A stretch of DNA of 64,000 nucleotides, from positions 62,001 to 126,000 of the forward strand of contig NZ_JAALFE010000013.1 in assembly GCF_011059185.1 (NCBI RefSeq), written 5' to 3'. The notes beneath the pieces are model-generated. The model had not been told where the DNA came from, did not search any database, and worked only from the letters and a program-made list of their open reading frames with translations. A program made the position numbers and the translations under genes. Origin of the DNA: Paragemmobacter kunshanensis. Its GTDB lineage: Bacteria; Pseudomonadota; Alphaproteobacteria; Rhodobacterales; Rhodobacteraceae. Of the stretch, positions 676-50,555 are shown in pieces; within the stretch, counting starts at the first letter, position 1, and every line of letters begins with the position of its first letter.

Positions 676-706
676 GGTCCGGTCCTGTGATGGGAAATGG
701 GATGGG

Positions 707-1753: not shown

Positions 1754-1799
1754 GGCATCTCCTGCAGCGGATGCGGGCGGGCACGGATGGGCGCCTTTT

Positions 1800-1828
1800 G
1801 CGACAGCTTTGTAACAGTTGCATGACGA
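1800..1828 (-). promoter_or_regulatory. Pho box upstream of pstS
   Basis: Read on the minus strand there are three heptamers, TCGTCAT, CTGTTAC and CTGTCGC, each separated by exactly 4 bases (11-base period). They resemble the PhoB half-site CTGTCAT. The array ends 46 bases before the pstS ATG, the expected place for PhoB activation under low phosphate. It is seen by eye only; neither a PhoB gene nor a transcription start is available in the window. Confidence 0.7.
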
Positions 1829-1878
1829 TTGCACGTCGGCCCGCCCCCGCACGCGGCGCGAAGACTTGGGCGAAAAGA

Positions 1879-2901: not shown

Positions 2902-3006
2902 GCCACTCTCCTGCCGTCTTCCCCCCTCATAGCACGCTGAGAAGCAGAGGCCAGCGCGCCGGGGGAACCATTCGGCCCCCCGACGCCCGATCAAGGCGGA
3001 GGACCC

Positions 3007-3414
3007 ATGCAGACGGGTGGACAGGAACGGGGCTTGCCTCCGGCGAAGGCAGGTCAGGCCCTCGCCCCGGGCCGACGTGCCGCACGCCCCGCGCGAAAGG
3101 AGGCCGCGGCCGATGCGCCGGATGCCATCACCATCGCCCTGGGCTTCGACTCGGCCGCCCCCGATTGCGTGGCCGTCGATGCGCCCGCCCGGATCGACGC
3201 GGCCCTTCTGGCCAGCACCCGCGCGCAAAAGGTGATCTGCCCCCTCTTCGCCGAGGATTACGATGCGCTGGTCGTGGCCGGGCATCTGCGCAGCCTCGGC
3301 TTTGACGGCACGCTGGTCGTGCTGGCACCCGACCTGCCCAATCCGCGCATGGTGGAACGCGAGATCCGCAATCAGGCCGGGGGCCTGCGCGTCTCGGTGG
3401 TGGTCAAGCCTTAG
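3007..3414 (+). CDS. Hypothetical protein, divergent from phoR
   Basis: A 135-residue protein of unknown function. The first 35 residues are basic and low in complexity. Residues 40-135 alternate strands and helices (ITIALGFD, VICPLFAEDYDALVVAGHL, GTLVVLAPDLP) in a pattern like a small Rossmann or receiver-type fold, but I see no clear phosphorylation-site set. A purine-rich ribosome site (GGCGGAGG) precedes the ATG. It runs away from phoR and its last 11 bases overlap the 3' end of iolB on the other strand. Codon use is like the neighbours, so I accept it as real. Confidence 0.7.
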   Translation: MQTGGQERGLPPAKAGQALAPGRRAARPARKEAAADAPDAITIALGFDSAAPDCVAVDAPARIDAALLASTRAQKVICPLFAEDYDALVVAGHLRSLGFDGTLVVLAPDLPNPRMVEREIRNQAGGLRVSVVVKP

Positions 3415-4225
3415 GCTCGGGGTTGTCGCGCCGATAGATCCAGTCGTGATCGGGATCGTTCTGGAACCGCCAGTTCCGCAGCGGCCCGGCCATGACGTTC
3501 AGGTAATACAGGTCATAGCCATAGGGCGCGCCGCAGGGATGATGCCCCTTCGGCACCAGCGTCACGTCATGGTCCTTCACGGCCATGGTCACGTCCAGGC
3601 TGCCATCCTCGGTATAGACGCGCTGGATGCCAAAGCCCTGCGCCGGGTTCAGGCGCATGTAATAGGTCTCTTCCAGATAGGTCATGCGGGGGAAATCATC
3701 CTCGTCATGCCGATGGCTCGGATAGCTTGACCAGTTGCCTGCCGGGGTGAAGACCTCTGTCACCAGCAGGCTGTCGGCCACCTCGCGCGCCTCCATGGCG
3801 ATATTGTTGATGAACCTCGTATTGGCCCCCGTCCCGCGCGGGGTCAGTTCGATCCCTTCGGGCCCAAGCCGCCGCACCGGATGGTTGCCCTTGCCCGGCG
3901 CGGTGCAGACGGCCAAGACGCAGTCAGTCGTGGCCACAGCCGCCCAATCGCTGCCATTCGGCACGTAAAGGCAATGCGGCGGTGTGCGTTCGAAGACGTT
4001 CATCCGGTCCCCCATCTCGCCGAAATCCTGCCCGCCCGCCGTGATCCGCGCCTTCCCCTCGACCAGCACGAGGATGGCTTCCCGATCCCCCGTCGCCTCG
4101 GCCGCCGACTGCCCCGCCGTCAGGCGATACAGGCCAAAGCCCACATAGCCCCAGCCCGCGCTTTCGGGGGTGATGTCGTGCACCTTGCCATTGGTCCCGG
4201 TCGGTTTGCGCAGAAGATCAGCCAT
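3404..4225 (-). CDS. iolB: 5-deoxy-glucuronate isomerase IolB
   Basis: A 273-residue cupin-type enzyme of myo-inositol catabolism that converts 5-deoxy-glucuronate to 2-deoxy-5-keto-gluconate in the cytosol. The IolB/KduI metal site is visible as SSYPSHRHDEDD about two thirds along, followed by EETYYMRLNP and VPKGHHP. The ATG at 4225 starts the usual N-terminus (MADLLRKP); upstream in-frame sequence belongs to a repeat. It is the last gene of iolC-iolD-iolE-iolB. The repeat at 4241-4280 separates it from iolE, so it may depend on read-through or on a separate promoter. Confidence 0.93.
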   Translation of the reverse strand: MADLLRKPTGTNGKVHDITPESAGWGYVGFGLYRLTAGQSAAEATGDREAILVLVEGKARITAGGQDFGEMGDRMNVFERTPPHCLYVPNGSDWAAVATTDCVLAVCTAPGKGNHPVRRLGPEGIELTPRGTGANTRFINNIAMEAREVADSLLVTEVFTPAGNWSSYPSHRHDEDDFPRMTYLEETYYMRLNPAQGFGIQRVYTEDGSLDVTMAVKDHDVTLVPKGHHPCGAPYGYDLYYLNVMAGPLRNWRFQNDPDHDWIYRRDNPEPKA

Positions 4226-4240
4226 GGTTTCATCTGTTCC

Positions 4241-4280
4241 CAAATATCCTGCGGGGGTCCGGGGGTGCAAAACCCCCGGT
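4241..4280. repeat. Dispersed intergenic repeat, copy 1 (iolE-iolB gap)
   Basis: A 40-base block with a hairpin of 7-base arms, CCGGGGG at 4259-4265 and CCCCCGG at 4273-4279. A stretch of 38 bases (4242-4279) recurs identically at 48820-48857 between edd and eda. Both copies have the same chromosomal direction, but relative to the flanking genes they are opposite. It lies entirely between coding regions, so the identity is not due to protein homology. Confidence 0.85.
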
Positions 4281-4291
4281 CCGCCGCGTCG

Positions 4292-5188
4292 TCAGATCAG
4301 ACCGGCTTCCTTTGAAAGCCGCTTCAACGTCGCAAGGCCCAGCGTCTGATAGAGCAGCGGGTTCCTCACATCCGGGTTCTGTTCCGCCTCGATCACGATC
4401 CAGCCGTCATAGCCCGCGCCTGCCAGGATCTTCAGCAGTGGCCCGAAATCCACGCCGCCCTCCTGATCGCCCGGCACGGTAAAGGCGCCCTCGACCACGC
4501 CCTTCAGGAAGGACCAACCCTCCTTGCGCACCTTCTCCACCACGGCGGGGCGGATGTTCTTGGCATGGAAGTGCCGCACCCGGGCGACATGCCTTGTCAG
4601 CACCGCCACGGGATCGCCGCCGCCAAAGGCGCAATGCCCGGCATCGAACAGCAGATGCGTATGAGGCCCGGTGGCCGCCATGAAGGCGTCGATATCCTCG
4701 GGACTTTCGACGATGGTGCCCATGTGGTGGTGATAGACCAGCGTGATGCCCTGCCCCGCCAGATAGGCGGCGAAAGCTTCAATTTTCGCGCCGAAGTCTT
4801 TCATTTCACTGGCAGAAAGCGTCGGACGATCATTCACCGCGCGGCCCGCATCGCCATGGATGGCGTTCGACGTTTCGCAGACGATCATCACGCGGCAGCC
4901 ATTGTGCTTCAGCTTCGCCAGATGGGGCTGGCAGGCGGCGATCTCATCCTCCACCGACCGGACCAGCAACTCGGTCGAATACCAGCCGGAGATGAACTTC
5001 AGCCCGTAAGAGCCGAGAAGGGCGCGCAATTCCTCGGGGTCGTCCGGCCAGCGGTGGCCATTCTCTATTCCGTCAAAGCCGATCTGGCGACCGGCTTCGT
5101 CCAGGATGCGCGCGGTGGGGATATTGGCCCCGATCGTGCGGTCGTCGTCATTCGCCCAGGCGATGGGATTGGTTCCGAAAAGGATCAT
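4292..5188 (-). CDS. iolE: Myo-inosose-2 dehydratase IolE
   Basis: A 298-residue TIM-barrel protein of the xylose isomerase/AP endonuclease 2 family. It dehydrates 2-keto-myo-inositol to 3D-trihydroxycyclohexane-1,2-dione. Family signatures include MILFGTNPIAW at the N-terminus, GITLVYHHHMGT in the middle, LLFDAGHCAFGG (a metal-site strand) and IVIEAEQNP near the end. The ATG at 5188 gives the standard IolE start. The gene begins 14 bases after iolD on the same strand, so they form one transcript. Confidence 0.93.
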   Translation of the reverse strand: MILFGTNPIAWANDDDRTIGANIPTARILDEAGRQIGFDGIENGHRWPDDPEELRALLGSYGLKFISGWYSTELLVRSVEDEIAACQPHLAKLKHNGCRVMIVCETSNAIHGDAGRAVNDRPTLSASEMKDFGAKIEAFAAYLAGQGITLVYHHHMGTIVESPEDIDAFMAATGPHTHLLFDAGHCAFGGGDPVAVLTRHVARVRHFHAKNIRPAVVEKVRKEGWSFLKGVVEGAFTVPGDQEGGVDFGPLLKILAGAGYDGWIVIEAEQNPDVRNPLLYQTLGLATLKRLSKEAGLI

Positions 5189-5202
5189 GTTCTTTCTCGA
5201 CT

Positions 5203-7032
5203 TCAGTCGGCAAGCCGCTGTTTTTCTTTTGCAGTTTCGAATTTCTCGCGCGCCGCGCGCACCTCGGCCCGGGTGGAGACTTCGGGGACGCCCACTTCCC
5301 ACCACGTCCCGCCTGCGGCGGTGGAAGGCATCGGATCGGTGTCGATCACGATGACCGAAGGCACCTGCCCCCCGCGCATCGCGGTGATCTTCGCCTCCAG
5401 CTCCGCCACCGACCCCGCCTTCACCGCCCGCGCCCCCATGCTGGCCGCGTGCGACACGAAGTCGATGGCCGACGGGTTCACGTGATAGCTGTCATCCAGC
5501 AGGTTGTTGAACGGCGCGCCGCCCGTGTGCTTCTGCAGGCGGTTGATGCAGCCATAGCCGCGGTTGTCGGTGATCACCACGGTGAAGGGCACGCCCATCA
5601 TCACGGCGGTCGCAAGCTCGCTATTGGCCATCATGTAGCTGCCATCACCCACCATGCAGACCACATCCGCATCGGGCCGCGCCATCTTGATCCCCAGCGC
5701 CCCCGCAATCTCATACCCCATGCAGGAAAAGCCGTATTCCATGTGATACCCGCCCTGCGCGGCATCCCAGATCTTGTGCAACTCCCCCGGCATCGTGCCT
5801 GCTGCCCCCATCACGATGGTCGCCGGGCCCGAGGCACGCTGCACCGCCCCCACGACCTGCATGTCGGTCGGCAATTCGTTGCCTGCCGCAGGCGCGGCCT
5901 TCACCGCCGCCTTTGCCGCCGCCCAATCCGCCTTCAGCTTGGCATCCGGCGCGGAGAACTTAACCCCCTTCAGCGCCGGACCCAGCCGTTCCAGCGCCAC
6001 CTTCGCATCGGCCACAAGGCTGATCGCGCCATGCTTGCCCGCATCATAGGCCTGCACATTGATCGCCAATATCTTCCGCGCCGGGTTCTTGAACAGCGAC
6101 CAGGACCCCGTGGTGAAATCCTGGAACCGTGTGCCAAGGCCGATCACCAGATCGGCGCCTTCGCAGACGATGTTGGCCGAGGATGCGCCCGTCACGCCGA
6201 CAGGCCCGAAATTCATCGCCTCGTCATGCGCCAGTGCGGATTTGCCCGCCTGCGTCTCCACGACGGGAACCCCATGCTCCGCCGCAAAGGCCGACAGCGC
6301 CGCCTCTGCCCCGGAATAGATCACGCCGCCGCCTGCCACGATCACCGGGTTCTTCGCCGCCTTGATCGCGGCAACGGCCGCCGCAAGCTCCGCCTGATCC
6401 GGCTCCGGCCGCCGGATGCGCCAGACCTTCGGGGTGAAGAAGGACTCCGGGTAATCATAGGCCTCCGCCTGCACGTCCTGACAGAAGGCCAGCGTCACGG
6501 GGCCGCATTCCGCGGGGTCCGTCATCACTCGCAGCGCGCGCGGCAGCGCGGTGATGATGTGTTCCGGCCGCGTGATGCGGTCGAAATAGCGTGAAACGGG
6601 GCGGAAGCAGTCATTCGCCGAAACCGTGCCATCCGCGAAATCCTCCACCTGTTGCAGCACCGGGTCCGGCGCGCGGTTGGCAAAGACATCGCCCGGAATG
6701 ATCAGCACGGGCAGGCGGTTCACATAGGCCAGCGCTGCCGCCGTCACCACATTGGTCGCCCCCGGCCCGATGGAGGTGGTCACCGCCATCGCCTTCCGCC
6801 GTTTGGACGCCTTGGCATAGGCAATCGCCGTATGCGCCATCGTCTGTTCGTTATGCCCCCGCCATGTGGGGAACACGTCGCGCGCGCCCTGCAGCGCCTC
6901 GCCCAGCCCCGCCACATTGCCGTGGCCAAAGATCGCCCAGATGCCTTCGATGAAGCGCGTCCCATCCTCGGCCTGCTGGTTGGCAAGCCAGCGCACCATC
7001 GCCTGCGCGGCGGTCAGTCGGATCGTGTTCAT
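5203..7032 (-). CDS. iolD: 3D-(3,5/4)-trihydroxycyclohexane-1,2-dione hydrolase IolD
   Basis: A 609-residue thiamine-diphosphate enzyme that opens the inositol ring, giving 5-deoxy-glucuronate. The N-terminal domain has EGIWAIFGHGNVAGLGEAL and a cofactor domain with TSIGPGATNVVTAAA. The C-terminal domain carries the ThDP/Mg motif GDGSYMMANSELAT followed by the Asn of ITDNRGYG. The start ATG at 7032 overlaps the iolC stop by 4 bases, so translation is coupled. Length fits IolD. Confidence 0.95.
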   Translation of the reverse strand: MNTIRLTAAQAMVRWLANQQAEDGTRFIEGIWAIFGHGNVAGLGEALQGARDVFPTWRGHNEQTMAHTAIAYAKASKRRKAMAVTTSIGPGATNVVTAAALAYVNRLPVLIIPGDVFANRAPDPVLQQVEDFADGTVSANDCFRPVSRYFDRITRPEHIITALPRALRVMTDPAECGPVTLAFCQDVQAEAYDYPESFFTPKVWRIRRPEPDQAELAAAVAAIKAAKNPVIVAGGGVIYSGAEAALSAFAAEHGVPVVETQAGKSALAHDEAMNFGPVGVTGASSANIVCEGADLVIGLGTRFQDFTTGSWSLFKNPARKILAINVQAYDAGKHGAISLVADAKVALERLGPALKGVKFSAPDAKLKADWAAAKAAVKAAPAAGNELPTDMQVVGAVQRASGPATIVMGAAGTMPGELHKIWDAAQGGYHMEYGFSCMGYEIAGALGIKMARPDADVVCMVGDGSYMMANSELATAVMMGVPFTVVITDNRGYGCINRLQKHTGGAPFNNLLDDSYHVNPSAIDFVSHAASMGARAVKAGSVAELEAKITAMRGGQVPSVIVIDTDPMPSTAAGGTWWEVGVPEVSTRAEVRAAREKFETAKEKQRLAD

Positions 7033-8948
7033 GCGGCAATCTCCCCCTTGGCGCGCGCCTTGTCCCAGATGGTGCAAAGGCGGCTGTATCGTTCAACCAT
7101 CATCGCGACGGCGGCCCCATCGCTCAATTCCCCGGCCAGCCAGCCGCGCGCGGCATCGGCAAAGATCGTGCGTCCCACGGCGAAACCCTTCACCAGATCA
7201 TGCCGCGCGGCAAGCGCCAGCGATGCCGCAAGCTGATCCTCGGGCGCATCCAGGCCGAGGACCACGATCCCGCGCACATGGCTGTCGCGCGCCGTGATCG
7301 CAGCGCAGGCATTGGCCCAGGCGGCATCGGTGGCAAAGGGTTCCAGCTTCCACCAATCCGGGTAGACGCCAAGGTCATAGAACCGTTCAATGACTTTTGC
7401 CGAAGTCATGTCGTCCACCGGGCCGACCTTGGACGGAATGATTTCCAAGAGCATCTCCAGCCGGTTGCGGCGGCAGGCATGGAACAGGCGGAGGACGGTT
7501 TCCTCCTGCCTTGCCTTGGTCGCGGCATCGTCATCGGGGTGATAGAAGCACAGCACCTTGACGACATGTTCCAGCGGCCATTCCTGCAGGCCCCCGAAAT
7601 CGGGGCCAAGCTCGGGCTCCAGCGTCAGGGGCCGCGATCCCGGCCATTCGACGGGCCGCCCGATCCACAGCCCCGTTCCGGCGGCCGCGTAAAGCGCCTG
7701 GCGACCCAGGCGCGCATCGCAGAGGATGCCATGCCCCGGCTGGCCATCGGCCACCGTCAGCGCGGCCTTCAGGCACAACTCCTTGAAGGCACCGATCTTC
7801 GCGGGCGTCGCACCCTCCATCGCCTCCAGCTGCATGCGGTGGTCAAAGGCAAAGACCCGCATCGTGGACAGGTCCCTGTGCCGGTTCGTGGCCCAATGCA
7901 CCTGTTCCAGCGCCGCATCCTTGCGCAGCGCCTTTTCGACGACGCCGCGCTTCAGGAAGAACTGGAGTTCTTCCCAAGACGGATAGGCGGGTGTGCAGCC
8001 ATGCCGCGACACGGCAAAGGCCCCGCAGGCATTGGCGTATTTCAAGGCCACCGGCCAAGGCTCGCCATCCAGCCAGCCTTTCAGCAGGCCCGACATGAAC
8101 CCATCCCCCGCGCCCAGCACGTTGAACACCTCGATCGGGAAACCCGGCCCGCTTTCGCCTTCGTCCAAGCTGTCGGGAATGGCGCCGGTGAAGGCCACCG
8201 CCCCCATCGGCCCCCGCTTGCACACCAGCGTCGCCTTCGACACCTTCCGCACCGCCCGCAGCGCGGCGATGGTATCGGTCGTGCCGCCCGCGATGTGGAA
8301 TTCCTCTTCGGTCCCCACGATCAGATCGAAGTAATGCAGCGTCGATTGCAGCTTGGCCGTGACGGCGGCGCTTTCGATGAAGCGGCTTTCCCCCGCGCCA
8401 TGCCCCGCCAACCCCCAGAGGTTCGGGCGATAGTCGATGTCCAGCGCCGTCTGCAGCCCGTGCTTGCGCGCCAGGGCCAGCGCCTTGATCACCGCCGCCT
8501 CGGTGCGCGGATGCGACAGATGCGTGCCTGTCGCGACGACGGATCGCGCCTCTGCGATGAAACCTTCGTCGATATCGGCCTCGCACAGCGCCATGTCGGC
8601 GCAATTCTCGCGGTAGAAGATCAGGGGAAACTGCGTCTCGTCCCGGATGCCCAGCAGGACCAGCGCGGTCAGCCGTTCCGGATCGGTCTTGACGCCCCGC
8701 ACGTCCACGCCTTCCCGCGCCAGCTCCTCGCGGATGAAACGGCCCATATGTTCGTCGCCCACCCGCGTGATCAGGGCCGAGCGCAGGCCCAGCCGCGCCG
8801 TGCCCGCCGCCATGTTGGTGGGGCTGCCGCCGATGTATTTCTGGAACGACCCCATATCCTCCAGCCGCCCGCCCACCTGCGCGCCGTAAAGATCGACCGA
8901 GGATCTTCCAATGGTGATGACATCAAGGGCGCGTGCTGGCTGGGACAC
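7029..8948 (-). CDS. iolC: Bifunctional 5-dehydro-2-deoxygluconokinase with C-terminal DUF2090 domain, IolC
   Basis: A 639-residue fusion. Residues 1 to about 320 are a PfkB sugar kinase (start DVITIGRSSVDLYG, catalytic loop GAGDGFMSG) that phosphorylates 2-deoxy-5-keto-gluconate. Residues of about 330-639 are DUF2090, a predicted aldolase-like barrel that may replace the IolJ aldolase absent from the window (inference from the family). Translation starts at a GTG preceded by the strong ribosome site AAGGAGG four bases away, which decides this start. First gene of the iol operon; an RpiR-type operator lies 55 bases upstream. Confidence 0.93.
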   Translation of the reverse strand: MSQPARALDVITIGRSSVDLYGAQVGGRLEDMGSFQKYIGGSPTNMAAGTARLGLRSALITRVGDEHMGRFIREELAREGVDVRGVKTDPERLTALVLLGIRDETQFPLIFYRENCADMALCEADIDEGFIAEARSVVATGTHLSHPRTEAAVIKALALARKHGLQTALDIDYRPNLWGLAGHGAGESRFIESAAVTAKLQSTLHYFDLIVGTEEEFHIAGGTTDTIAALRAVRKVSKATLVCKRGPMGAVAFTGAIPDSLDEGESGPGFPIEVFNVLGAGDGFMSGLLKGWLDGEPWPVALKYANACGAFAVSRHGCTPAYPSWEELQFFLKRGVVEKALRKDAALEQVHWATNRHRDLSTMRVFAFDHRMQLEAMEGATPAKIGAFKELCLKAALTVADGQPGHGILCDARLGRQALYAAAGTGLWIGRPVEWPGSRPLTLEPELGPDFGGLQEWPLEHVVKVLCFYHPDDDAATKARQEETVLRLFHACRRNRLEMLLEIIPSKVGPVDDMTSAKVIERFYDLGVYPDWWKLEPFATDAAWANACAAITARDSHVRGIVVLGLDAPEDQLAASLALAARHDLVKGFAVGRTIFADAARGWLAGELSDGAAVAMMVERYSRLCTIWDKARAKGEIAA

Positions 8949-9002
8949 CGTTCCTCCTTGCCGAAGCCCCGCATGGCGCAGGGATTCGGTCCTTTGCTGA
9001 TT

Positions 9003-9020
9003 TTGGAATTTTTATTCCAA
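9003..9020. promoter_or_regulatory. Palindromic operator before iolC (likely RpiR/IolR site)
   Basis: A perfect 18-base inverted repeat, TTGGAATTTTTATTCCAA, with 7-base arms and a TTTT centre. It sits in the 98-base gap between the regulator gene and iolC. A second palindrome of the form TGGAA-N6-TTCCA occurs before the regulator at 9885-9900. The GGAA-N6-TTCC form matches what I recall as the IolR motif of Sinorhizobium. Confidence 0.75.
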
Positions 9021-9046
9021 ACCCGCGCAAAGGGAAAGGGATTTCT

Positions 9047-9850
9047 TCAGCCCCGCGCCGATCCCACGGCCACCGCCAGCGCGATGGACAGCGCCAGCGT
9101 CGCCGAGAGCGAGCGGAAGGCGCCGAAGTCCACTTCCGGCACGGTCAGGACGGGAGAGGACAGCTTTGCCAGCGGGCTGGTCAGCCGGTCGGTGATGCCG
9201 ATGACCGGCAATCCCCGCGCCTGCGCGTCGCCCGCCAGGGCAAGGGTTTCGTCGGAATAGGGGGCAAAGGTGATGGCGATGCAGGCATCGCCCGGGCGCA
9301 TGGCGTGGCGATGGTCCAGCTTGCCCGCCCCGTCATGCAGCATGGCGGGCACCTGCATCTTTTCGAAGACATAGGTCAGGTAGCTGGCCACCGGATAGGC
9401 GCGGCGCAGGCCCACCACATGCAGCGTCCCGGCCCCCGCAAGCTGTGCCACCGCCTGCGACAGCGCCGCCTCATCCGCCGATTTGGCCAGTTGTTCCAGC
9501 GACAGGCGGCCCGCCTCCACGAATTCCGCCAGAAGGGCGGCGGGGCTCCCGGCACCATTGTCCTTGAGGTTTCTGAGCCGGGTCGAATAGTCCGGCCAGC
9601 CGGGGCTATAGGCCTCGCGGAACAGGCGCTGCATTTCGGAAAAGCCGGAAAAGCCGATGATCTGACAGAACCGCATCAGGGCGGATGGCGGCACATCGGC
9701 CCCCGCCGCCAGTTCCGCCACCGTCGAGACGGCGATGCGGTCGGTATTGGCGGCGATGTAATCGGCGCATTGGCGCAACCGCTTGGGCAGGCCTTCGGAC
9801 AAGTCGGCCAGGCGGTTGCGGAATTCCTCGATACTGGCCGGTGCGGACAT
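9047..9850 (-). CDS. MurR/RpiR-family transcriptional regulator, probable inositol repressor
   Basis: A 267-residue regulator. Residues 1-75 form the RpiR-type helix-turn-helix domain (RLADLSEGLPKRLRQCADY, VSTVAELAAGADVPPSALMR). Residues of about 110-250 form a SIS sugar-phosphate-binding domain (GTLHVVGLRRAYPVA, ITFAPYSDETLALA). It lies directly upstream of iolCDEB on the same strand and has palindromes of one type before its own ATG and before iolC. Autoregulation and control of the iol genes by an inositol-derived intermediate are therefore likely (inference). The frame runs upstream to 9964 but that part crosses the operator and a hairpin element, so the ATG at 9850 is preferred. Confidence 0.88.
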   Translation of the reverse strand: MSAPASIEEFRNRLADLSEGLPKRLRQCADYIAANTDRIAVSTVAELAAGADVPPSALMRFCQIIGFSGFSEMQRLFREAYSPGWPDYSTRLRNLKDNGAGSPAALLAEFVEAGRLSLEQLAKSADEAALSQAVAQLAGAGTLHVVGLRRAYPVASYLTYVFEKMQVPAMLHDGAGKLDHRHAMRPGDACIAITFAPYSDETLALAGDAQARGLPVIGITDRLTSPLAKLSSPVLTVPEVDFGAFRSLSATLALSIALAVAVGSARG

Positions 9851-9884
9851 GCGTTCCCTCGTCTTTGCGCGGAGGCTAGCAGCG

Positions 9885-9900
9885 TGGAACGAATATTCCA
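9885..9900. promoter_or_regulatory. Palindromic operator before the rpiR-type gene
   Basis: TGGAACGAATATTCCA, with 5-base arms (TGGAA/TTCCA) around 6 bases and the same 16-base length as the core of the iolC site. A further TGGAA follows at 9909-9913, giving an overlapping second pair. It lies 35 bases upstream of the regulator ATG, a position suited to autoregulation. Confidence 0.7.
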
Positions 9901-9924
9901 ACCATTTATGGAACGGCGGGAAAG

Positions 9925-10035
9925 GCGATTTCTGACGCAGAAATCGCATCGGAATTTGACGCAAATTCCGCCTCCCTCCGGTCGGAGCCCGATTTCTGCG
10001 TCAGAAATCGGCGCGAAAAATGCGTCATTTTTCGC
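9925..10035. repeat. Composite hairpin element, copy 1 (two ACG-centred plus two CGT-centred hairpins)
   Basis: Four perfect inverted repeats in a row: 9925-9947, 9950-9970, 9989-10011 and 10013-10035. Arms are 9-10 bases. The centre is ACG in the first two and CGT in the last two, always flanked by TG on the left and CA on the right. Outer arm sequences differ between hairpins (GCGATTTC, CGGAATT, CCGATTTC, GCGAAAAA) yet each is perfectly complementary to its partner. A small CTCCG/CGGAG stem lies in the 18-base spacer. The last hairpin touches the stop codon of the gamma-carbonic anhydrase gene. The same architecture recurs at 50057. Confidence 0.9.
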
Positions 10036-10553
10036 TAGAGCGCCCGCAACCCCGCCCGGAACCGCAGCGCATTGGCGCGATAGCCCGCCGCCGATTGCAA
10101 AAGCCGCGCCTGCGCTGCCTCGTCCAGGCTGCGGATCACCTTGCCCGGGCTGCCCATGACCAGCGATCCATCGGGGATCTCCTTGCCTTCGGTGATCAGC
10201 GCGCAGGCCCCGATCAGGCAGCCCCGCCCGATCCTTGCTCCGTTCAGGATGGTTGCGCCCATCCCGATCAGCGTGCCATCCCCGATCACGCAGCCATGCA
10301 GCATCGCCCTGTGGCCGATGGTGCAATCCGCCCCGATCACCAGCGGATAGCCCATGTCGGTATGCAGCACGCAGGCCTCCTGCACGTTGGACCCCGCCCC
10401 CACCCGGATTTCCTCGTTATCCCCGCGCAGCGTCGCGCCGAACCAGACCGAGGCGCCCGCCTCCAGCACCACGCGGCCGATCAGGTTGGCATCGGGCGCG
10501 ACCCATGCCGAAGGGTCGATCTGCGGTTCCACCCCGTCGAGCGAATAGATCAT
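10035..10553 (-). CDS. Gamma-class carbonic anhydrase family protein
   Basis: A 172-residue left-handed beta-helix protein of hexapeptide repeats (for example [32 protein letters not shown]). Histidines in VLHTDMG and [11 protein letters not shown] are placed as the zinc ligands of gamma-carbonic anhydrases. It belongs to the YrdA/PaaY type; true carbonic anhydrase activity is not certain for this subgroup. The ATG overlaps the gmk stop by 4 bases, so it is the third gene of yicC-gmk-CA. The hairpin element 9925-10035 follows its stop and may end the transcript. Confidence 0.88.
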
Positions 10554-11191
10554 CGCGCCTCGAACTCCCGGTTCAGGCCGCGCACGAAATCGGCCAGCCC
10601 GGGCTGGCGGTCGCGGCGCAGGCGTTCGCTTTCAAGGATCGTCTTCAGGCGCGCGAAGGTGGTGTCGAGATCCTCGTTCACCAGCACATAGTCATATTCC
10701 GCCCAATGGCTGATCTCGTCGCGGCTTTTCGCCATGCGGCCGGCGATCACCTCATCGCTGTCCTGCCCGCGCGACCGCAGGCGGCGATCCAGTTCCGCGA
10801 TCGAGGGCGGCAGCACGAAGACCGAAACCACATCCCGCCCCAGCGCCGAATTGCGGATCTGCTGGCCGCCCTGCCAGTCGATGTCGAAGACCGTGTCGCA
10901 GCCCGCGCGCATGTTCTCTTCCACCGGGCCGCGCGGGGTGCCGTAGAAATTCCCGAAGACTTCGGCATGTTCCAGCATCTGGCCCTGATCCACCATCGCC
11001 TCGAACTCGGCCCGCGACCGGAAGAAATATTCCCGCCCGTCCGTCTCGCCCGGGCGCGGCGCGCGGGTGGTGGCCGAAACGGAAAAGCGCATGGTCGGAT
11101 CCCAGCCCATCAGCATCCGCGTCAGCGTGGATTTCCCCGCCCCGGAGGGAGAGGAAAGGATAAGCAGAAGCCCCTTGCGCGCCATGGTCAT
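10550..11191 (-). CDS. gmk: Guanylate kinase
   Basis: A 213-residue cytosolic kinase converting GMP to GDP with ATP. The P-loop is [11 protein letters not shown] (residues 13-23) and the GMP-binding region contains [11 protein letters not shown] and GREYFF. The ATG at 11191 overlaps the yicC stop by 4 bases (ATGA); a second in-frame ATG lies two codons later. It sits in the operon yicC-gmk-gamma carbonic anhydrase, with 4-base overlaps at both ends that imply translational coupling. Confidence 0.96.
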
Positions 11192-12084
11192 TCCACGTTC
11201 TGAACCTGTTCGCGCATCTGATCTATGACCGTTTTCAGGTCAAGCCCGATGCGCGTCAGCGCCAGCGCCTGCGCCTTGGAACAGAGCGTGTTCGCCTCGC
11301 GCATGAATTCCTGCATCAGGAAATCGAACTTGCGCCCCACCGGGCCTGTTTCGGCCAGCAGGGCGCGGGCGGCTGCGACATGGGCGGTCAGGCGGTCCAG
11401 TTCCTCGGTCACGTCGTTCTTAACCGCGATCAGCGCCAGTTCCTGCGTCAGCCGCGCCTCGTCCACGCCATCGGCATTGGCGATGACCTTGGCCAGCGCG
11501 TCCTTCAGGGCGGTGGCGGCGGCCTCGCGGCGGGCCTCGGCCTCGGCCGTCGCGGCGCGGGTGAGCGTCTCGATCCGGTCCAGTTGCGCGGCGATCACCG
11601 CCTGCAGCGCCGCGCCTTCGGCGGCGCGCATGGCGTTGAAATCGGCCAGCAGCGCGGGCAGGTCGGCCAGGATCGCCGCGCGCAGGGGGGCGGTATCCTC
11701 GTCCGTCACGCCCTGATCCAGCACCCCGCGCACGCCCAGCACATCGGCGGCGGTGGCCTGGGCCAGCGTCACGCCCGCGCCCATCGCCGCCTCTTCCACC
11801 TCGGCCAGCGCCCGCAGCACCGCCTGCAGCGTGGCGGGGTTGACGCGCAGCGCGGCCTCGGCCGCGCCCTCCTCGCGCGCCACCTTCAGCGACAAGGACA
11901 CATTCCCCCGCCCCAGCGCCCGGCCCAGCTCGGCGCGCAGCGCGGCTTCCAGCCCGTCGATCCAGTCCGGCACGCGCAGGCGCAGATCCAGCCCCTTGCC
12001 ATTGACGGACCGCAGATCCCACAGCCAGCCATGGCCCGCAGCCTGCCCCTTGCGGGCGGCGAAGCCGGTCATCGAAACGGTCAT
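11188..12084 (-). CDS. YicC/YloC-family endoribonuclease
   Basis: A 298-residue protein with the YicC N-terminal start [14 protein letters not shown], the conserved [18 protein letters not shown], and the DUF1732 C-terminus ending [14 protein letters not shown]. Members are RNA-cleaving enzymes that act in RNA turnover. The ATG at 12084 is the family start; the open frame further upstream has no family similarity that I recognise. yicC next to gmk is a widely kept pair in bacteria. Confidence 0.93.
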
Positions 12085-12279
12085 TCCTGCCTCCTGCGCC
12101 AGCGGTGGCGCGATTAACCTTCTGTTCACCTTTCCGCCAAATTGCCGCGCATCTGCCCTACAATCGGCCATGACGGCTAACCGGGGCGGCCCGGCAACCG
12201 TTACTGGGCGTAACAGAGGGGATCACTCCCCACAACCGGCGGCGGCCACCTGCCCCGCCCGAGCGGAAGGCAAGGACCG

Positions 12280-12885
12280 ATGGCAAGCGGACGGACAGGG
12301 CAGCAGGGCATGCGCGGGGATGCCTCCCATGGCGCGCCCTCGGCGCTGCTGCGCCGCCACTGGCAGGGGCTGCGGCGCGGCCCTGCCCTGCCCCGCCGCG
12401 ACCAGATCACCCCGCGGGCGCTGGCGGCGATGCTGGACCACGCGCTCATGGTGGAACGGCGGCCCGACGGGGCGGTGCTTCTGCGCTATGCGGGCATGGC
12501 GGTGAATGCGGTGCATGGGCAGGATCTGACCGGCCGCCCGCTTTCCGCCCTGTTCGAGACCGGCGCGCGGGCCGATCTTCTGGCCGCGCTGGAGCCGGCC
12601 TTTGCCGGCCAGCGCGCGCTGAGCATGGCGCTGCATTCCGAACGCGGCCTGACGCGCCCACCGCTGACGGCGCGGCTGATGCTGCTGCCGCTGGCGGGTT
12701 GCGGATCGGAAGGGATCACCCTGATCGGCAGCCTTGATCTGGACGGCCCGGCCCTCCTGCCGCCACGCCGCTTTCGCATCGAACGCGTGCTGGGCGAAAC
12801 CCTGGACCTGCCCGCAGGCGAGGCCGCCCGCGCCCCGCCGGTCGAGGGCGGTCCGCCGCCTGTTCTGGTCTGGTCGCGGGGCTGA
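12280..12885 (+). CDS. PAS-domain protein of unknown role
   Basis: A 201-residue soluble protein. Residues of about 35-155 look like a single PAS-type sensor domain (ALAAMLDHALMVERR, YAGMAVNAVHGQDLTGRPLSALF, LMLLPLAGCG). This is the PAS_5-like type common in Rhodobacteraceae and has no attached kinase or output domain. A ribosome site (AAGGA) lies five bases before the ATG. It is divergent from yicC and ends in a strong hairpin shared with the convergent DAHP synthase gene. A function cannot be assigned. Confidence 0.72.
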   Translation: MASGRTGQQGMRGDASHGAPSALLRRHWQGLRRGPALPRRDQITPRALAAMLDHALMVERRPDGAVLLRYAGMAVNAVHGQDLTGRPLSALFETGARADLLAALEPAFAGQRALSMALHSERGLTRPPLTARLMLLPLAGCGSEGITLIGSLDLDGPALLPPRRFRIERVLGETLDLPAGEAARAPPVEGGPPPVLVWSRG

Positions 12886-12887
12886 TG

Positions 12888-12920
12888 AGAAGGGGGCGAT
12901 CCGGCGGATCGCCCCCTTCT
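12888..12920. terminator. Bidirectional hairpin terminator between PAS gene and aroG
   Basis: A near-perfect inverted repeat with arms of about 14-16 bases (AGAAGGGGGCGATC and its complement GATCGCCCCCTTCT) meeting at a short CGGCG centre. It begins right at the PAS gene stop, and the stop of the convergent DAHP synthase lies 32 bases beyond it. No long T-run follows on either side, so it may be partly Rho-dependent. Confidence 0.7.
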
Positions 12921-12952
12921 GATGTCCGGAAGGCCCGTGCAGGCCGCGCCTG

Positions 12953-14323
12953 TCAGAGCGCGATGCGCCGCCCGGCTTCGCGCAGCGCGGTCAGTTCCTC
13001 GGCTACGAGGAAGGCCAGTTCCAGCGACTGGCTGGCATTCAGCCGCGGGTCGCAGGCGGTGTGATAGCGATCCGACAGATCCTCATCCGTCACGGCGCGC
13101 AGGCCGCCGGTGCATTCGGTCACATCCTTGCCCGTCATCTCGAAATGCACGCCGCCGGGGATCGTGCCTTCCGCCTTGTGGATGGCGAAGAATTCGCGCA
13201 CCTCGCGCAGGACGCTGTCGAAGGGCCGCGTCTTGTAGCCGGTCGACGACTTGATCGTGTTGCCATGCATCGGATCGCAGGACCAGACGACATTCGCGCC
13301 TTCCTCGCGCACGGCCTTGATCAGGCGCGGCAGATGTTCGCCCACCTTGCCCGCGCCAAAGCGCGCGATCAGCGTCAGACGCCCGGCCTCGTTGCCGGGG
13401 TTCAGCTTGGCCATCAGCACCTTCAGATCCTCGGCCGTGGTCGAAGGCCCGCATTTCAGCCCGATCGGGTTCAGCACGCCGCGGCAGAATTCCACATGCG
13501 CGCCATCCGGCTGGCGCGTGCGGTCGCCGATCCAGATCATGTGGCCCGAGCCCGCCACCGGCTGGCCGGTGATGGAATCGATGCGGCAGAGCGCCTCTTC
13601 GTATTCCAGAAGCAGCGCCTCGTGGCTGGTGTAGAAATCGACGCGGCTCAGTTCGTTGGCCGTGTCCGAATTCACCCCCGCCGCATTCATGAAATCCAGC
13701 GCGTCGGAAATGCGGTTGGAAAGCTCGCGATAGCGTTCGGCCTTGTCATGTTCGGCAAAGCCCAGCGTCCAGGAATGGACGCGGTGGATATCGGCGAAAC
13801 CGCCCGTGGAGAAGGCGCGCAGCAGGTTCAGGCTGGCCGCCGCCTGCGTATAGGCCTGCAGCATCCGGCCCGGATCGGCGATGCGCGCCTCGGGCGTGGG
13901 ATCGAAGCCGTTGATGATGTCGCCCTTGTAGGACGGCATCTCCACCCCGTTGATCACTTCGGTCGGGGCAGAGCGCGGCTTGGCGAATTGCCCCGCCATG
14001 CGGCCCACCTTGATCACCGGCACCTTGGCGCCATAGGTCAGCACCACCGCCATCTGCAGCATCACGCGGAAGGTGTCGCGGATGTTGTCGGCGCTGAATT
14101 CGGCGAAGCTTTCGGCGCAATCCCCGCCCTGCAGCAGGAAGGCCTTTCCTTCCGCCGCCAGGGCAAGCTGCTTCTTCAGCTTGCGCGCCTCGCCCGCAAA
14201 GACCAGCGGCGGATATTTGGCAAGCTGCGCCTCGACGGCGTTCAGCGCGGCCTGATCCGGGTAATCGGGCATCTGGATCCGCGGCTTTGCGCGCCAATCC
14301 GATTTCATCCAGCCCTTGGTCAT
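12953..14323 (-). CDS. aroG: Class II 3-deoxy-7-phosphoheptulonate synthase (DAHP synthase)
   Basis: A 456-residue plant-type enzyme that condenses phosphoenolpyruvate and erythrose-4-phosphate, the first step of aromatic amino acid synthesis. Landmarks are [11 protein letters not shown] (metal Cys), [45 protein letters not shown] and [12 protein letters not shown]. These match class II DAHP synthases in order and length. It stands alone, convergent with the PAS gene and divergent from the GlxA-type regulator. I saw no leader peptide or attenuator upstream. Confidence 0.96.
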
Positions 14324-14484
14324 GGGTCTTCTCCGAAGTTTGCGGTAACGGGGGCGGGTATAAGGAAAGCAGGCGGCATATGCAAAGGAAGAAACTGGCC
14401 TGATCCATGTCGGGAATGGCCTTGCACCTGCGGGCGATTGATGTTTGGCTGCGCGCCGAATACCGACACTTTCAGGTCGCTCAG

Positions 14485-15501
14485 ATGCCCACCCCCCCGA
14501 AGAAGGCCCAGCAGATGGCCAAGGTCACCGAACCCCGGCGGTTCGTCTTCCTGCTGCTGGACCGGTTCACCATGCTTTCCTTCGCCAGCGCGATCGAACC
14601 GCTGCGCATCGCCAACCGGGTTTCGGGGCAGACGCTCTATGTCTGGAAGCTGGCCGGCGAAGGGGGCGACATGGCCACCTGTTCCAACGGGGCCTCGTTC
14701 AAGCTGGACATGGGTCTCGATGAGATCGAGCGCGAGGATACGCTTCTCGTCTGCGGCGGGGTGGATGTGCAGAAGGCCACCACGCGCGGCGTGCTGAACT
14801 GGCTGCGGCGCGAGGCGCGGCGCGGCGTCACCATGGGCGGGCTTTGCACCGGGGCGCATGCCCTGGCCAAGGCGGGGCTGCTGGATGGCAAGAAGGCCAC
14901 GATCCACTGGGAAAACCAGGACGGTTTCCTTGAGGAATTCGAAGAGGTCAAGCTGACGAAATCGGTCTTCGTGATGGATGGCAACCGCTGGTCCACGGCG
15001 GGCGGCACCTCTTCGATCGACCTCATGCTCAAGGTCATCGCCTCTGACCATGGCGAGGATCTTGCCAATACCGTGGCCGATCAGCTGATCTATTCCACCA
15101 TCCGCACCGATCAGGACACGCAGCGCCTGTCGATCCCCACCCGGATCGGCGTGCGCCATCCGAAGCTGAGCCAGGTCATCCAGATGATGGAAGGCAATAT
15201 CGAGGATCCGATGTCGCCCGCCGACCTGGCCGAGGAAGTGGGCATGTCCACCCGCCAGCTGGAACGGCTGTTCCGCCGTTACCTGAACCGCTCGCCCAAG
15301 CGCTATTACATGGAACTGCGCCTGCAGAAGGCGCGCAACCTGCTGATGCAGACGGATATGAGCGTGATCAACGTGGCCCTGGCCTGCGGCTTTGCCTCGC
15401 CCTCGCATTTCTCCAAATGCTACCGCGCGCATTACAATACCACGCCCTATCGCGAACGCGGCACGCAGGGCGGCGGAACAGGGGTGCGGCTGTCGATCTG
15501 A
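14485..15501 (+). CDS. GlxA-family transcriptional regulator (DJ-1/PfpI plus AraC helix-turn-helix)
   Basis: A 338-residue regulator. Residues of about 15-180 form a DJ-1/PfpI-like ligand domain ([35 protein letters not shown]). Residues of about 225-325 hold two AraC-type helix-turn-helix motifs ([38 protein letters not shown]). Members often control amine or betaine catabolism. In-frame ATGs also lie at 14407 and 14515; none has a good ribosome site, so the start is uncertain. The flavin amine oxidase gene begins 41 bases downstream on the same strand and could be a target. Confidence 0.87.
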
Positions 15502-15542
15502 CAGCCGGTGACGGTGCAGTAACGGGTGGGGGGGCGCGGGCC

Positions 15543-16871
15543 ATGATCGGGCGGCGCGGCGTGATGGGTATTCTGGCAATGGCGCCCATGGGCATGGCGG
15601 CAGGGGCGGCAGGCGGGCGGCGGGTGGCCGTCATCGGCGCGGGCATGGCGGGCCTTGCCGCCGCGCGGGCCCTGGCACAGGCCGGGGCCGATGTCACCAT
15701 ATTCGAGGCGCGCGACAGGATCGGGGGCCGCATCTGGACGGATCGCTCCTGGCCCGGCCTGCCGGTGGACATGGGCGCAAGCTGGATCCACGGGCTGACG
15801 GGCAACCCGCTGACAGCGCTGGCGCGCGAGGCGGGGGCGGCGCTGCATCCCACCGATTACGAAAGCGCCGCCGCCTTCGGGGCGGGCCGGGAACGGCCCT
15901 ACCCCGCCGAACCCTGGGGGATGCTGGAGAAAGCGCAGGCGCAGGCATGGAAGGCCGATGCGGACCTCTCGCTGCGCGCGGCGGTCGCGGCGCTGCCGCG
16001 CTGGGGCCGCATGACGGCGGCGGAACGCGACGCCTTCCGCGCCGCCGTCCACCGCATGGTGGAACATGAATACGGGGCCGATTGGGGCGAGCTTTCGGCG
16101 CGGTCCTATGACGAGGCCGAAGGCTTTGGCGGTGGCGACGCGCTGTTCCCGCAGGGCTATGACCAGCTGGCGCATCACGCGGCGCGCGGCCTTGATATCC
16201 GCCTCGGGGCAAGGCTGACGGCGGTCAGGGCCGCGCGCGACGGCCTTCGCCTGACCTTTGCCGATGGATCAGAGGCCGGGGCCGATGCCATGGTCTGCAC
16301 CCTGCCCCTTGGCGTGCTGCAATCGGGCGATATCGCCTTCGATCCGCCCCTTTCCCCCGCGCGCCAGAGCGCCATCGAAAGCCTCGGCATGGGGCTTCTG
16401 AACAAATGCTGGCTGCGCTTCGACGCGCCGCCCCCGGTGCCGCGGGCCGACTGGATCCTGAACCTTGGCCCGCCCGCAGACCTGTGGCCCGAATGGGTGA
16501 ACCCCTCGGCAGCCGCGCCCGCGCCGCTGCTTCTGGCCTTCAATGCAGGCCCAAGGGCCGATGAGGCAGAGGCATGGGATGACGCCACCACCCTCGGTTC
16601 GGCCCATGACGCCCTGAAAGCCATGTTCGGCAGCCGCTTTCCCGCCCCCATCGCGGCACAGGTCAGCCGCTGGCGCGCCGATCCGGCAGCACGCGGCAGC
16701 TATTCCTTCCACCCGCCGGGGACCGGGGCCGACACACGCCGCGCGCTGGCCGGGCTGGACTGGGACGGCAGGCTGGCCTTCGCGGGCGAGGCCGCCTCGC
16801 CCGATCACCCCTCGACCGTGCATGGGGCCTGGCTGTCCGGCCTTGCCGCCGCGCAGGCCCTAGCCGGATGA
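15543..16871 (+). CDS. Flavin monoamine oxidase family protein with Tat-like signal
   Basis: A 442-residue FAD oxidoreductase. The N-terminus MIGRRGVMGILAMAP looks like a twin-arginine signal (RRG), so it may be exported folded with FAD. The dinucleotide motif VAVIGAGMAGLAAARAL follows, then GGRIWT, DMGASWIHGLTGNP, and a C-terminal FAD motif around FAGEAASPDHPSTVHGAW. The family oxidises primary amines or polyamines to aldehydes; the substrate is not readable. The ATG at 15543 starts the signal. Its 3' end overlaps the convergent dehydrogenase gene by 12 bases. Confidence 0.85.
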   Translation: MIGRRGVMGILAMAPMGMAAGAAGGRRVAVIGAGMAGLAAARALAQAGADVTIFEARDRIGGRIWTDRSWPGLPVDMGASWIHGLTGNPLTALAREAGAALHPTDYESAAAFGAGRERPYPAEPWGMLEKAQAQAWKADADLSLRAAVAALPRWGRMTAAERDAFRAAVHRMVEHEYGADWGELSARSYDEAEGFGGGDALFPQGYDQLAHHAARGLDIRLGARLTAVRAARDGLRLTFADGSEAGADAMVCTLPLGVLQSGDIAFDPPLSPARQSAIESLGMGLLNKCWLRFDAPPPVPRADWILNLGPPADLWPEWVNPSAAAPAPLLLAFNAGPRADEAEAWDDATTLGSAHDALKAMFGSRFPAPIAAQVSRWRADPAARGSYSFHPPGTGADTRRALAGLDWDGRLAFAGEAASPDHPSTVHGAWLSGLAAAQALAG

Positions 16872-17984: not shown

Positions 17985-18203
17985 CAGGGCGGGTCTTGCG
18001 CGATCCTGCACGGTGTCTTGTCCTTTCGGCTTGTGGCCCCCCTGATCAAGGGCTGCGGCCGCCGCGATCAACCCCGCCTCACGGCAATCTGACCCGACGT
18101 CAGCCGCGCCCTGCCCTGCCCGGCGCTGCATCGGGGTGCTTTTCTTTTGATCACAAGCACACTAGGTTCGCGTCAGGACGATGTTCCAACACGGGAGACA
18201 ACA

Positions 18204-19385: not shown

Positions 19386-19412
19386 TCCGCCTTCCGGCAT
19401 GACATTGGGCGC

Positions 19413-19434
19413 GGCCCGGGCAAACGCCCGGGCC
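19413..19434 (+). terminator. Intra-operon hairpin after the binding-protein gene
   Basis: Perfect 9-base arms GGCCCGGGC and GCCCGGGCC around an AAAC loop, 27 bases after the stop. No T-run follows, so it may act as a partial terminator or as a 3' barrier that stabilises the binding-protein message. This is common when such a gene must be made in excess over its transporter. Confidence 0.6.
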
Positions 19435-19510
19435 GTTGCCTTAACCAGACGTCCCGCGACGCCGCCCATGAAAGGGCGGATGGAAATGACGGGATACAGG
19501 GGAACACCAG

Positions 19511-49594: not shown

Positions 49595-50056
49595 ATGACC
49601 GGACCAGCCATCCAGACCTGCCTCTGGTTCGACGATCAGGCGCAAGAGGCCGCGGAAACCTATGTCGCGCTCCTGCCCGGCTCGAAGATCATCCACAGCT
49701 TTCCCCGCCGTGGCGGCGACGGGGTCTTTCTTCTGCATGTCTCGCTTCTGGGCCAGCGCTACAGCTTTCTCAACGGCGGGCCGCATCACCGCCTGACCCC
49801 CGCCGCCTCGATCGAGGTGCATCTGGATACCCAGGCCGAGGTGGATCTTCTGTGGAACGCGCTTCTGCAAGGGGGCGAGGCGATGCGCTGCGGCTGGCTG
49901 ACCGATCGCTTCGGCCTGTCCTGGCAGATCATCCCGCGTGGCCTGATCCGCCTGATGCAGGCCGCGGATGACGCGGCCGCCGCCCGGGTGACCGAGGCGA
50001 TGATGGGCATGGTCAAACTGGATGTCGCCGCCCTCGAAGCCGCCGCCCGCGGCTAG
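49595..50056 (+). CDS. VOC-superfamily protein (PhnB-like)
   Basis: A 153-residue protein of the vicinal-oxygen-chelate fold, of the type often labelled 3-demethylubiquinone methyltransferase-like or PhnB-like. It begins TCLWFDDQAQEAAETYVALLP and has FLNGGPHHRLTPAASIEVHL and CGWLTDRFGLSWQIIP, the standard motifs. The true activity is unknown for most members. The stop is immediately followed by the composite hairpin element at 50057. Confidence 0.84.
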   Translation: MTGPAIQTCLWFDDQAQEAAETYVALLPGSKIIHSFPRRGGDGVFLLHVSLLGQRYSFLNGGPHHRLTPAASIEVHLDTQAEVDLLWNALLQGGEAMRCGWLTDRFGLSWQIIPRGLIRLMQAADDAAAARVTEAMMGMVKLDVAALEAAARG

Positions 50057-50266
50057 GCGATTTTTGACGCAAGAATCGCGGAAAATTCTGACGCAGAATT
50101 TTCCGGCCCCCGACCGGATCAATCCCGAAATCTGCGTCAGATTTCGGCGCGATTTCTGCGTCAGAAATCGCTTCACACGCCCCATACCCGCGCCGCTCGC
50201 ACGTCATCCGGGTCGCCCCCCGAAATCTGCGCCAGATTTCGGCGCGATTTCTGCGTCAGAAATCGC
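50057..50266. repeat. Composite hairpin element, copy 2, with its right half duplicated
   Basis: Six inverted repeats: 50057-50079 and 50079-50105 with an ACG centre; 50125-50147 and 50149-50171 with a CGT centre; 50220-50242 (centre CGC) and 50244-50266 (centre CGT). Arms are 10-12 bases. All are perfect except one G:T pair in the first. Each centre is flanked by TG and CA. Architecture, 19-base spacer and one-base gap between CGT hairpins match copy 1 at 9925. The last two repeat the two before them with a 95-base period. Flanked on both sides by stop codons of convergent genes. Confidence 0.9.
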
Positions 50267-50267
50267 T

Positions 50268-50555
50268 TCACGCGCCCCCGACCCGCGCCGCGCGCCCGCC
50301 GCGCCGCTTCGGCGCATCGGGCGTCATCAGCCCGTCCTGCAGCACCTTCGACATCGGATGATCCGGTGCGCCCAGCGCATATTCCGCCATCACCGTGCGG
50401 ATCGCGTCCTTCATCGGCGCATCCAGCGGCAGGCTCAGCGCCCAGTCCACCAGGATCGACCGGCATTCCCCCGGCGTGATGCCCTCGATGCGATAGCTTT
50501 CCCGCACCAGCCCCTTCGGATCCGCCTCTTCCAGCCGCACGGCCCGTCTCCCCAT
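50268..50555 (-). CDS. Small hypothetical protein downstream of glnE
   Basis: A 95-residue protein (start MGRRAVRLEEADPKGLV) with a predicted helical core (GECRSILVDWALSLPLDAPMK) and a basic C-terminal tail (RRGGRAARVGGA). Its ATG lies one base after the glnE stop, so it is translated with glnE; an upstream ATG at 50567 is also possible. A partial copy of its 3' end is found in the duplicated hairpin block. I cannot assign a function. Confidence 0.7.
   Translation of the reverse strand: MGRRAVRLEEADPKGLVRESYRIEGITPGECRSILVDWALSLPLDAPMKDAIRTVMAEYALGAPDHPMSKVLQDGLMTPDAPKRRGGRAARVGGA

Follow-up and report, generated by a model that had tools for sequence, protein, structure and literature searches.

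Mirrored hairpin doublets at gene ends in Paragemmobacter kunshanensis: a candidate bidirectional gene-boundary element selected for structure

What keeps a row of hairpins intact when the letters of their arms are free to change? The question is raised by positions 9925-10035 of a 64,000-nucleotide stretch of Paragemmobacter kunshanensis DNA (contig NZ_JAALFE010000013.1, positions 62,001 to 126,000), hereafter the window. The sequence-only reading had described four adjacent perfect hairpins at this place, arranged as a mirrored pair of pairs with differing arms, and had counted ten such hairpins in the window. We confirmed the coordinates and the pairing of all four, which adjoin one another with loops ACG, ACG, CGT and CGT in that order and centres spaced 24, 40 and 24 bp; the mirrored layout is also the usual arrangement in this host (>> <<). 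The ten hairpins are four at 9925-10035 and six in a second copy at 50055-50268. The arms do differ among the four hairpins, but they form three words and not four, H1 and H3 having the arm CGATTTC in common. The features are as follows:

9925..9947, + strand: H1, 10-bp arms, GCGATTTCTG-ACG-CAGAAATCGC, loop ACG; outer hairpin of the left doublet (>>)
9950..9970, + strand: H2, 9-bp arms, loop ACG; inner hairpin of the left doublet, centre 24 bp from that of H1
9971..9988, no strand: spacer between the doublets, GC-rich, contains CTCCGGTCGGAG
9989..10011, - strand: H3, loop CGT on + and ACG on -; inner hairpin of the right doublet (<<)
10013..10035, - strand: H4, loop CGT on + and ACG on -; outer hairpin of the right doublet
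9047..9850, - strand: RpiR-type regulator gene (PF01418, PF01380), start codon at a distance of 74 nt from the element's left end
10035..10553, - strand: hexapeptide-repeat protein gene (PF00132), stop codon TAG at 10037-10035, abutting H4
50055..50268, no single strand: second window copy, doublets 50055-50105 (+), 50123-50173 (-) and 50218-50268 (-)

The last base of H4 is part of the stop codon of the hexapeptide-repeat gene (a one-base overlap), which we take to be gamma-carbonic-anhydrase-like. The closest named relatives of the neighbouring gene are in Rhodobacter sp. CACIA14H1 (91%) and Tabrizicola sp. TH137 (90%). With equal arms in H1 and H3, a 21-bp H1-H3 long stem is an alternative fold, which may be favoured over separate hairpins in the window copy; the folding scores of the window copy are z = -8.0 as single-stranded DNA and z = -6.7 as RNA. 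In the second copy, the three doublets are oriented >, <, < and the last two are near-identical, as if from local duplication.

By itself, TGACGCA is not clearly enriched in the window (14 seen against 8.6 expected, 14 being reached in 7 of 100 shuffles), so the signal lies in the arrangement. A BLAST search of the host genome with the element gave 59 matches, and we built a host sample of 37 stretches around these matches and beside the window, 786 kb with the window included, which is therefore a sample chosen for copies. A general scan for perfect hairpins lying next to each other revealed a sharp peak of centre spacing at 24.0 bp (62 pairs) and a second spacing of 24.5 bp (17 pairs, one loop of 4). 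With no pairing criterion at all, 51 of the 54 same-strand TGACRCA pairs at most 80 bp apart in the 786 kb are spaced by exactly 24 bp, and the order "< then >" is almost absent (3 TGACRCA pairs). The repeat unit is a doublet, i.e. two back-to-back hairpins of 9-10 bp with mostly 3-nt loops and centres 24 bp apart, whose loops read ACR in one sense; doublets are usually paired inversely (>> <<). A covariance model, R1, made from 63 of 65 aligned doublets after removal of two poor rows, finds 81 distinct doublets in 42 elements in the 786 kb, 33 of these elements being one simple mirrored pair. The left doublet of the window copy (H1+H2) matches R1 at 9923-9973 with 71.5 bits and the right one (H3+H4) at 9987-10037 with 68.3 bits. 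Over the whole host genome, R1 gives 138 rows among 150 scored candidates, both strands of the same places being counted; among them, 11 rows at six places outside the stretches bring the host to about 90 doublets. When the window copy is compared with the rest of the host, its best long match, over 111 query bases, has 83% identity, and identity rises to 100% in shorter pieces (25 bases). The spacer between doublets differs in length and sequence between copies and between orthologs.

We then considered the pairing itself, which the sequence-only reading had proposed to be under selection as a fold, not as a linear binding site. In an alignment of 63 copies (A1), 98.0% of the pair cells are paired, with 243 double-sided changes against 70 in shuffles. 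As the A1 rows had been selected for at least 8 of 9 pairs, the test was repeated without selection on 51 TGACRCA pairs: of their 714 arm cells, 701 form Watson-Crick pairs and 13 do not, a single chance match in L045 supplying 9 of the 13. All six outer pairs are formed in 124 of the 157 TGACRCA cores that lie between genes; 5 more form five, and the other 28, with at most three, look like chance cores. At the genus loci, 203 of the 214 doublet hairpins are perfect (at least 5 of 7 pairs required). Comparison of orthologous copies of the window site, pair by pair, gives 551 equal cells, 109 with double-sided changes that keep the pairing and 12 that are one-sided or broken, in cells that are non-independent and with hairpins matched by order; out of 11 strings (host in, G017 out), this count uses the 7 with exactly four hairpins and drops G009, G013, G006 and G008 (G numbers denote genomes of the genus). 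The alignment, the unselected test and the orthologs agree that structure is kept, as had been suggested. Note that the 1498 cells of the perfect-hairpin count include 3 G-U, 5 A-C and 3 other non-Watson-Crick combinations: G-U is not preferred, so that RNA folding of one strand alone is insufficient to account for the pattern.

The loops have a sense. Out of 162 hairpins, 151 carry ACG, ACA, CACG, GCG or GCA, 1 is inverted and 10 are other, a count in which the strand is set by the model and which hence measures disagreement within the doublet. The choice of arms is constrained too. In a rough permutation that ignores kinship of copies, covering the 33 elements with both doublets among 45 groups, the same 7-nt arm word never occurs twice within a doublet (0/33 and 0/33, against 3.9 and 2.8 expected), hence cross-pairing is avoided. 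The two inner hairpins share an arm word once (6.4 expected), and the left outer and right inner hairpins do so in 8 of 33 elements (5.2 expected), the window copy among them.

Genes were called with a simple gene caller of our own, and none of the 42 elements in the 786 kb lies inside a called gene. Of the 37 elements beside a gene end, 25 start between -6 and +6 nt of the stop codon. When intergenic gaps shorter than 60 nt are set aside, these stretches hold 394 gaps, of which 57 are convergent, 239 tandem and 98 divergent; of the 42 elements, 17 are convergent, 20 tandem and 5 divergent, an excess in the convergent class (Fisher P = 9e-6). A simpler hairpin scan places 21 of 38 that near a stop codon, against a mean of 5.1 and a maximum of 12 in 2000 trials of uniform placement in the same gaps, and against 33 of 306 for other intergenic hairpins. 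In 19 tandem gene pairs, the stop-proximal doublet scores 67.4 bits and the distal one 68.2, the proximal being better in 8 of 19; better conservation of the stop-proximal doublet is not seen. A U-tract, defined as at least 4 T in the 10 nt after the inner hairpin, follows only 2 of the 81 doublets, on which ground we rejected a canonical intrinsic terminator. A terminator scan of window positions 1-20000 found 8 sites against 10.6 expected; one falls at H4, whose stem itself supplies the apparent tail, ATTTTT.

The sequence-only reading had called for a covariance-model search of Rhodobacteraceae, and this search found both covariation and copies in related genomes. Within the genus, R1 matches all 18 other genomes, with 3-96 rows each; nine of the 18 have 79 or more rows, at most 97 being scored. 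The window site is readable in 16 of these 18 genomes (no gene end in G001, a partial match in G004). Hairpins are present there in 11 of the 16, partly decayed in G013, G005 and G017, and the element is missing in five (G011, G010, G003, G016 and G015). In Tabrizicola aquatica and T. soli, no such element lies within 3 kb of the same neighbouring gene. G011 (L185, L203) has few R1 rows (18) and an empty window site; it is a possible case of element loss that could be useful in finding a partner gene. Another site of this mirrored kind (type A), L025:9901, is kept whole or in part in G009, G002, G018, G007, G001, G005 and G006, partly broken in G002, G005 and G018; in the remaining genomes the flanks no longer adjoin or hold no such hairpin. 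The broken and fused orthologs at this site indicate that single copies are dispensable. The fusion is seen in L198 (G007) compared with L197 (G018), where a 24-bp deletion running through the shared TGACGCA core joins two hairpins and leaves an unpaired relic.

Beyond the genus, occurrence is patchy. Among 60 relatives, R1 matches 18 of 18 genomes of the same genus, 3 of 18 from other genera of the family and 0 of 24 from other families, and a wider draw gives 34 of 295 family genomes. The 40 stretches with R1 matches from 14 other genera have the same architecture with different cores (TG-ACG-CA, TG-GCG-CA, CG-ACG-CG, TT-TCA-AA and others). In 38 of these 40, from 13 genera, an element passes the scan: 20 are convergent, 17 tandem and 1 divergent, the gaps in these short stretches being 17 convergent, 45 tandem and 15 divergent; 23 of 37 elements in the 13 genera lie between -2 and +6 nt of a stop codon. 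A second alignment, A2, contains 37 doublets selected for paired arms and the 24-bp pitch; the host contributes 12 of them and 11 other genera the remaining 25. In A2, 99.8% of cells are paired, and 18 of 18 pairs vary on both sides. R2, the model built from it, was run with 20 candidates scored in each genome and has matches in 64 genomes of the 295 from the family, representing 63 of 294 genera; 12 of these matching genomes had themselves supplied rows of the model. In a class sample of 190, R2 has three matches: the host, one other member of its family and a single genome from a different family, the last being 1 of up to 187 class genomes outside the host's family. One exact sequence pattern occurs in the host only among 196 genomes of the order, which makes sequence alone a poor probe. 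The window copy has no match among PLSDB plasmids, and viral contigs hold no exact match to the doublet pattern. A ProQ/FinO partner (PF04352) was considered and rejected: it is present in 2 of 295 family genomes, neither with doublets.

Gene ends of the host also carry a second kind of doublet, type B, in which CAAATTTCTTCGAAGAAATTTG is directly followed by CAAAAATCTTCGAAGATTTTTG, with the core CTTCGAAG and centres 22 bp apart. It was found at these sites:

L022:1977-2021, L025:13808-13852, L042:3213-3257, L011:17651, L011:11705, L030:4689 and L013:12738

Six of the seven are 1-5 nt from a stop codon, and 4 of the 5 in the hairpin scan are within 6 nt of one. The type B core is close to its own reverse complement and the doublet is unmirrored, which would follow from a need for the correct loop on both strands; this suggests that the sense of its loop is the reason for the mirroring of type A. 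At L025:13808, between convergent genes, the host has type B with two CTTCGAAG-like cores 22 bp apart. The same site, with some rows matched on one flank only, holds type B in G009 and G011, a decayed type B in G002, a single type B hairpin in G014, a B-like hairpin (decayed in G007) plus a GC-rich one in G018, G007 and G001, type A in G003, G012 and G008, part of type A in G005 and none of these in G013. Different hairpin types at one convergent site are what interchangeable modules would show, and suggest that any suitable hairpin pair could serve at gene ends. In Rhodobacter sp. SW2, a doublet similar to type B lies after the same gene (L089:3520). A third hairpin family, GATTTTTCGCAGAAAAATC, occurs at L030:4350, L044:7945, L033:17362 and L040:1665, in several places directly beside a GC-rich hairpin, and in three Gemmobacter records (L060, L062, L066) the gamma-carbonic-anhydrase-like gene is followed by CCCCCTGAGGATATTT-like motifs that adjoin GC-rich hairpins.

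How could these properties be accounted for? We propose that the mirrored doublets are a bidirectional gene-boundary or transcript-end element selected for structure, and that the element probably marks where gene transcripts end. A polymerase leaving the upstream gene would transcribe, right after the stop codon, two back-to-back 10-bp hairpins with ACR triloops, which would fold in the transcript in vivo and set its 3' end. Most likely they would act as a barrier, where 3'-to-5' decay would halt after factor-dependent termination further on, putatively by Rho; they might also slow the polymerase. The inverted second doublet would likewise serve transcripts coming from the opposite side. Since each doublet would serve one direction, the unit is mirrored and enriched between convergent genes. 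What leads us to favour this reading is where the elements sit, their mirror rule, the sense of their loops and the exchange of modules. However, the lack of a wobble preference and the equal conservation of the distal doublet would be natural if both strands matter or if the DNA folds, and these two contrary points hold our confidence in a transcript-end element to an even chance. Other observations also speak against it: 5 of 42 elements lie between divergent genes, 5 of 16 genomes are without the window element while others have it decayed, and left outer and right inner hairpins share arm words more, not less, than expected.

A more specific proposal, which we advance tentatively, is that the tandem triloop hairpins are recognised as a pair by a putative dedicated RNA-binding protein. 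The loop identity, fixed in each genus, would co-evolve with that protein, the mirrored layout would let each strand present its loops in the right sense, and the class would be family-wide.

The main rival to the transcript-end reading is a REP/BIME-like dispersed DNA repeat, spread by a transposase or recombination and tolerated at gene ends, whose palindromes would serve copying as single-stranded DNA hairpins. This is possible, though we rather doubt it. It is consistent with some 90 host doublets, the family-wide but patchy occurrence (64/295 genomes), filled and empty orthologous sites, genus-specific cores, local duplications (L014; G006 and G012) and the absence of a wobble preference. 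On the other hand, a RAYT-type partner, which the sequence-only reading had put forward, did not materialise: no genus genome of 19 has Y1_Tnp over the Pfam cut-off (one match in G009 is just below), and in the family Y1_Tnp is found in 30 of 295 genomes, doublets in 64 and both in 6, against 6.5 expected. The best long host match reaches no more than 83% identity, double changes keep the pairing at a fixed site, and the window copy has no match in PLSDB plasmids, nor a doublet pattern an exact one in viral contigs. The inverted doublets also resemble the ends of a MITE; by eye, comparison of filled with empty sites brings out no recognisable target duplication, and the transposase search covered Y1_Tnp only.

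A DNA-structure or nucleoid-protein site (a cruciform, or two tandem sites 24 bp apart) insulating neighbouring genes would fit the indifference to G-U, the equal conservation of both doublets in tandem contexts and the good folding of the window copy as single-stranded DNA. We find it unlikely, as double-stranded binding needs no joint change of half-sites, and a loop sense fixed to the gene end, together with the mirror rule, fits a read strand better. Improbable too is a translation-linked role, in which terminating ribosomes would be stalled by a stop-codon hairpin and expression would fall, as is reported for E. coli REPs within 15 nt of a stop codon (quoted in PMC12306157). Many stems begin -1 to +6 nt from the stop, inside this range, but conservation is just as high in the distal doublet, which faces antisense, divergent genes flank 5 of the 42 elements, and such a role does not demand strict pairing on both strands. 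Lastly, template switching in replication, which copies one arm onto the other and could perfect any hairpin, giving covariation without selection, would agree with 203 of 214 perfect hairpins and rare unpaired states without wobble bias, but is very improbable and seems not enough, since according to the abstract of PMC8604942 it homogenises arms and also inverts the loop, yet only 1 of 162 hairpins is inverted against its doublet, and it leaves the 24-bp pitch, the mirror, the stop-codon position and the architecture in other genera unexplained.

To our knowledge, little is known of how transcript ends are defined without U-tracts in GC-rich alphaproteobacteria. The element provides a signal that is clear and can be counted: it is linked to stop codons, keeps its structure while its sequence is free, has no Rfam match and occurs in many genera of the family. 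Its modules, patchy in occurrence and exchangeable, amount to a natural experiment on the origin and replacement of boundary elements. At the gathering score, Rfam finds only a tRNA in the window; the best weak matches of the element are two microRNA models (E = 0.17 and 0.71). Searches of a CC-licensed library, in which most subscription papers are missing, turned up no prior description of it. ANTAR hairpins have 6-nt loops and lie in leaders before genes. The element has triloops or tetraloops, is mostly at gene ends and is mirrored, although the ANTAR dual-hairpin RNA motif (PMC3369931) also consists of two adjacent small hairpins read as a pair.

The element is new within known kinds, being a variant of extragenic palindromes or tandem-hairpin terminators. 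The U-, V- and X-shaped terminators are described in PMC8355165 as tandem or two-strand intrinsic terminators after stop codons; like the element, they comprise consecutive hairpins downstream of stop codons, and in that source only the L class is defined by a poly-U trail and the X class lies on both strands. The element differs in its fixed 24-bp pitch, one-sense ACR loop and AT-rich covarying stems, in its approximately 90 host copies and in an outer stem often at the stop codon itself. Termination by the element itself is putative. With REP/BIME and with REPINs and their RAYT it shares (PMC3733652, PMC12306157, PMC2817692, PMC3116915) the nature of high-copy extragenic palindromes downstream of genes in inverted pairs, 81 doublets being present in 786 kb. 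It differs in having a doublet per half, not a single palindrome, in arms that vary with compensation and in lacking an end tag: no GTAG or CGTC tag was found at the stem end, where column counts show an outer flank ARGCG and a GC-rich inner one. The CGTC-tagged REPs of Di Nocera et al likewise have no dedicated transposase and share the letters CGTC, but carry the tag at one stem end (PMC3733652), whereas in every hairpin of the element these letters fall in the loop region, and several other genera have doublets without CGTC. For E. coli, effects of REPs close to stop codons on translation and decay are reported (PMC12306157). As described in these passages, none of the systems has the fixed pitch, the loop sense and the stop-codon contact.

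The surroundings of the window element hold one more repeated feature. A TTGGAAT-N4-ATTCCAA-like motif has 3 matches in the window against 0.9 expected, including sites at 9003-9020 and 9884-9901 (0 and 2 mismatches), which lie upstream of two genes, PfkB-DUF2090 (7029-8948) and RpiR. IolR-type operators follow the pattern GGAA-N6-TTCC, and the sites are perhaps the operator of the RpiR-type regulator. The site at 9884-9901 is recognisable in 17 of 17 rows of the window-locus ortholog comparison.
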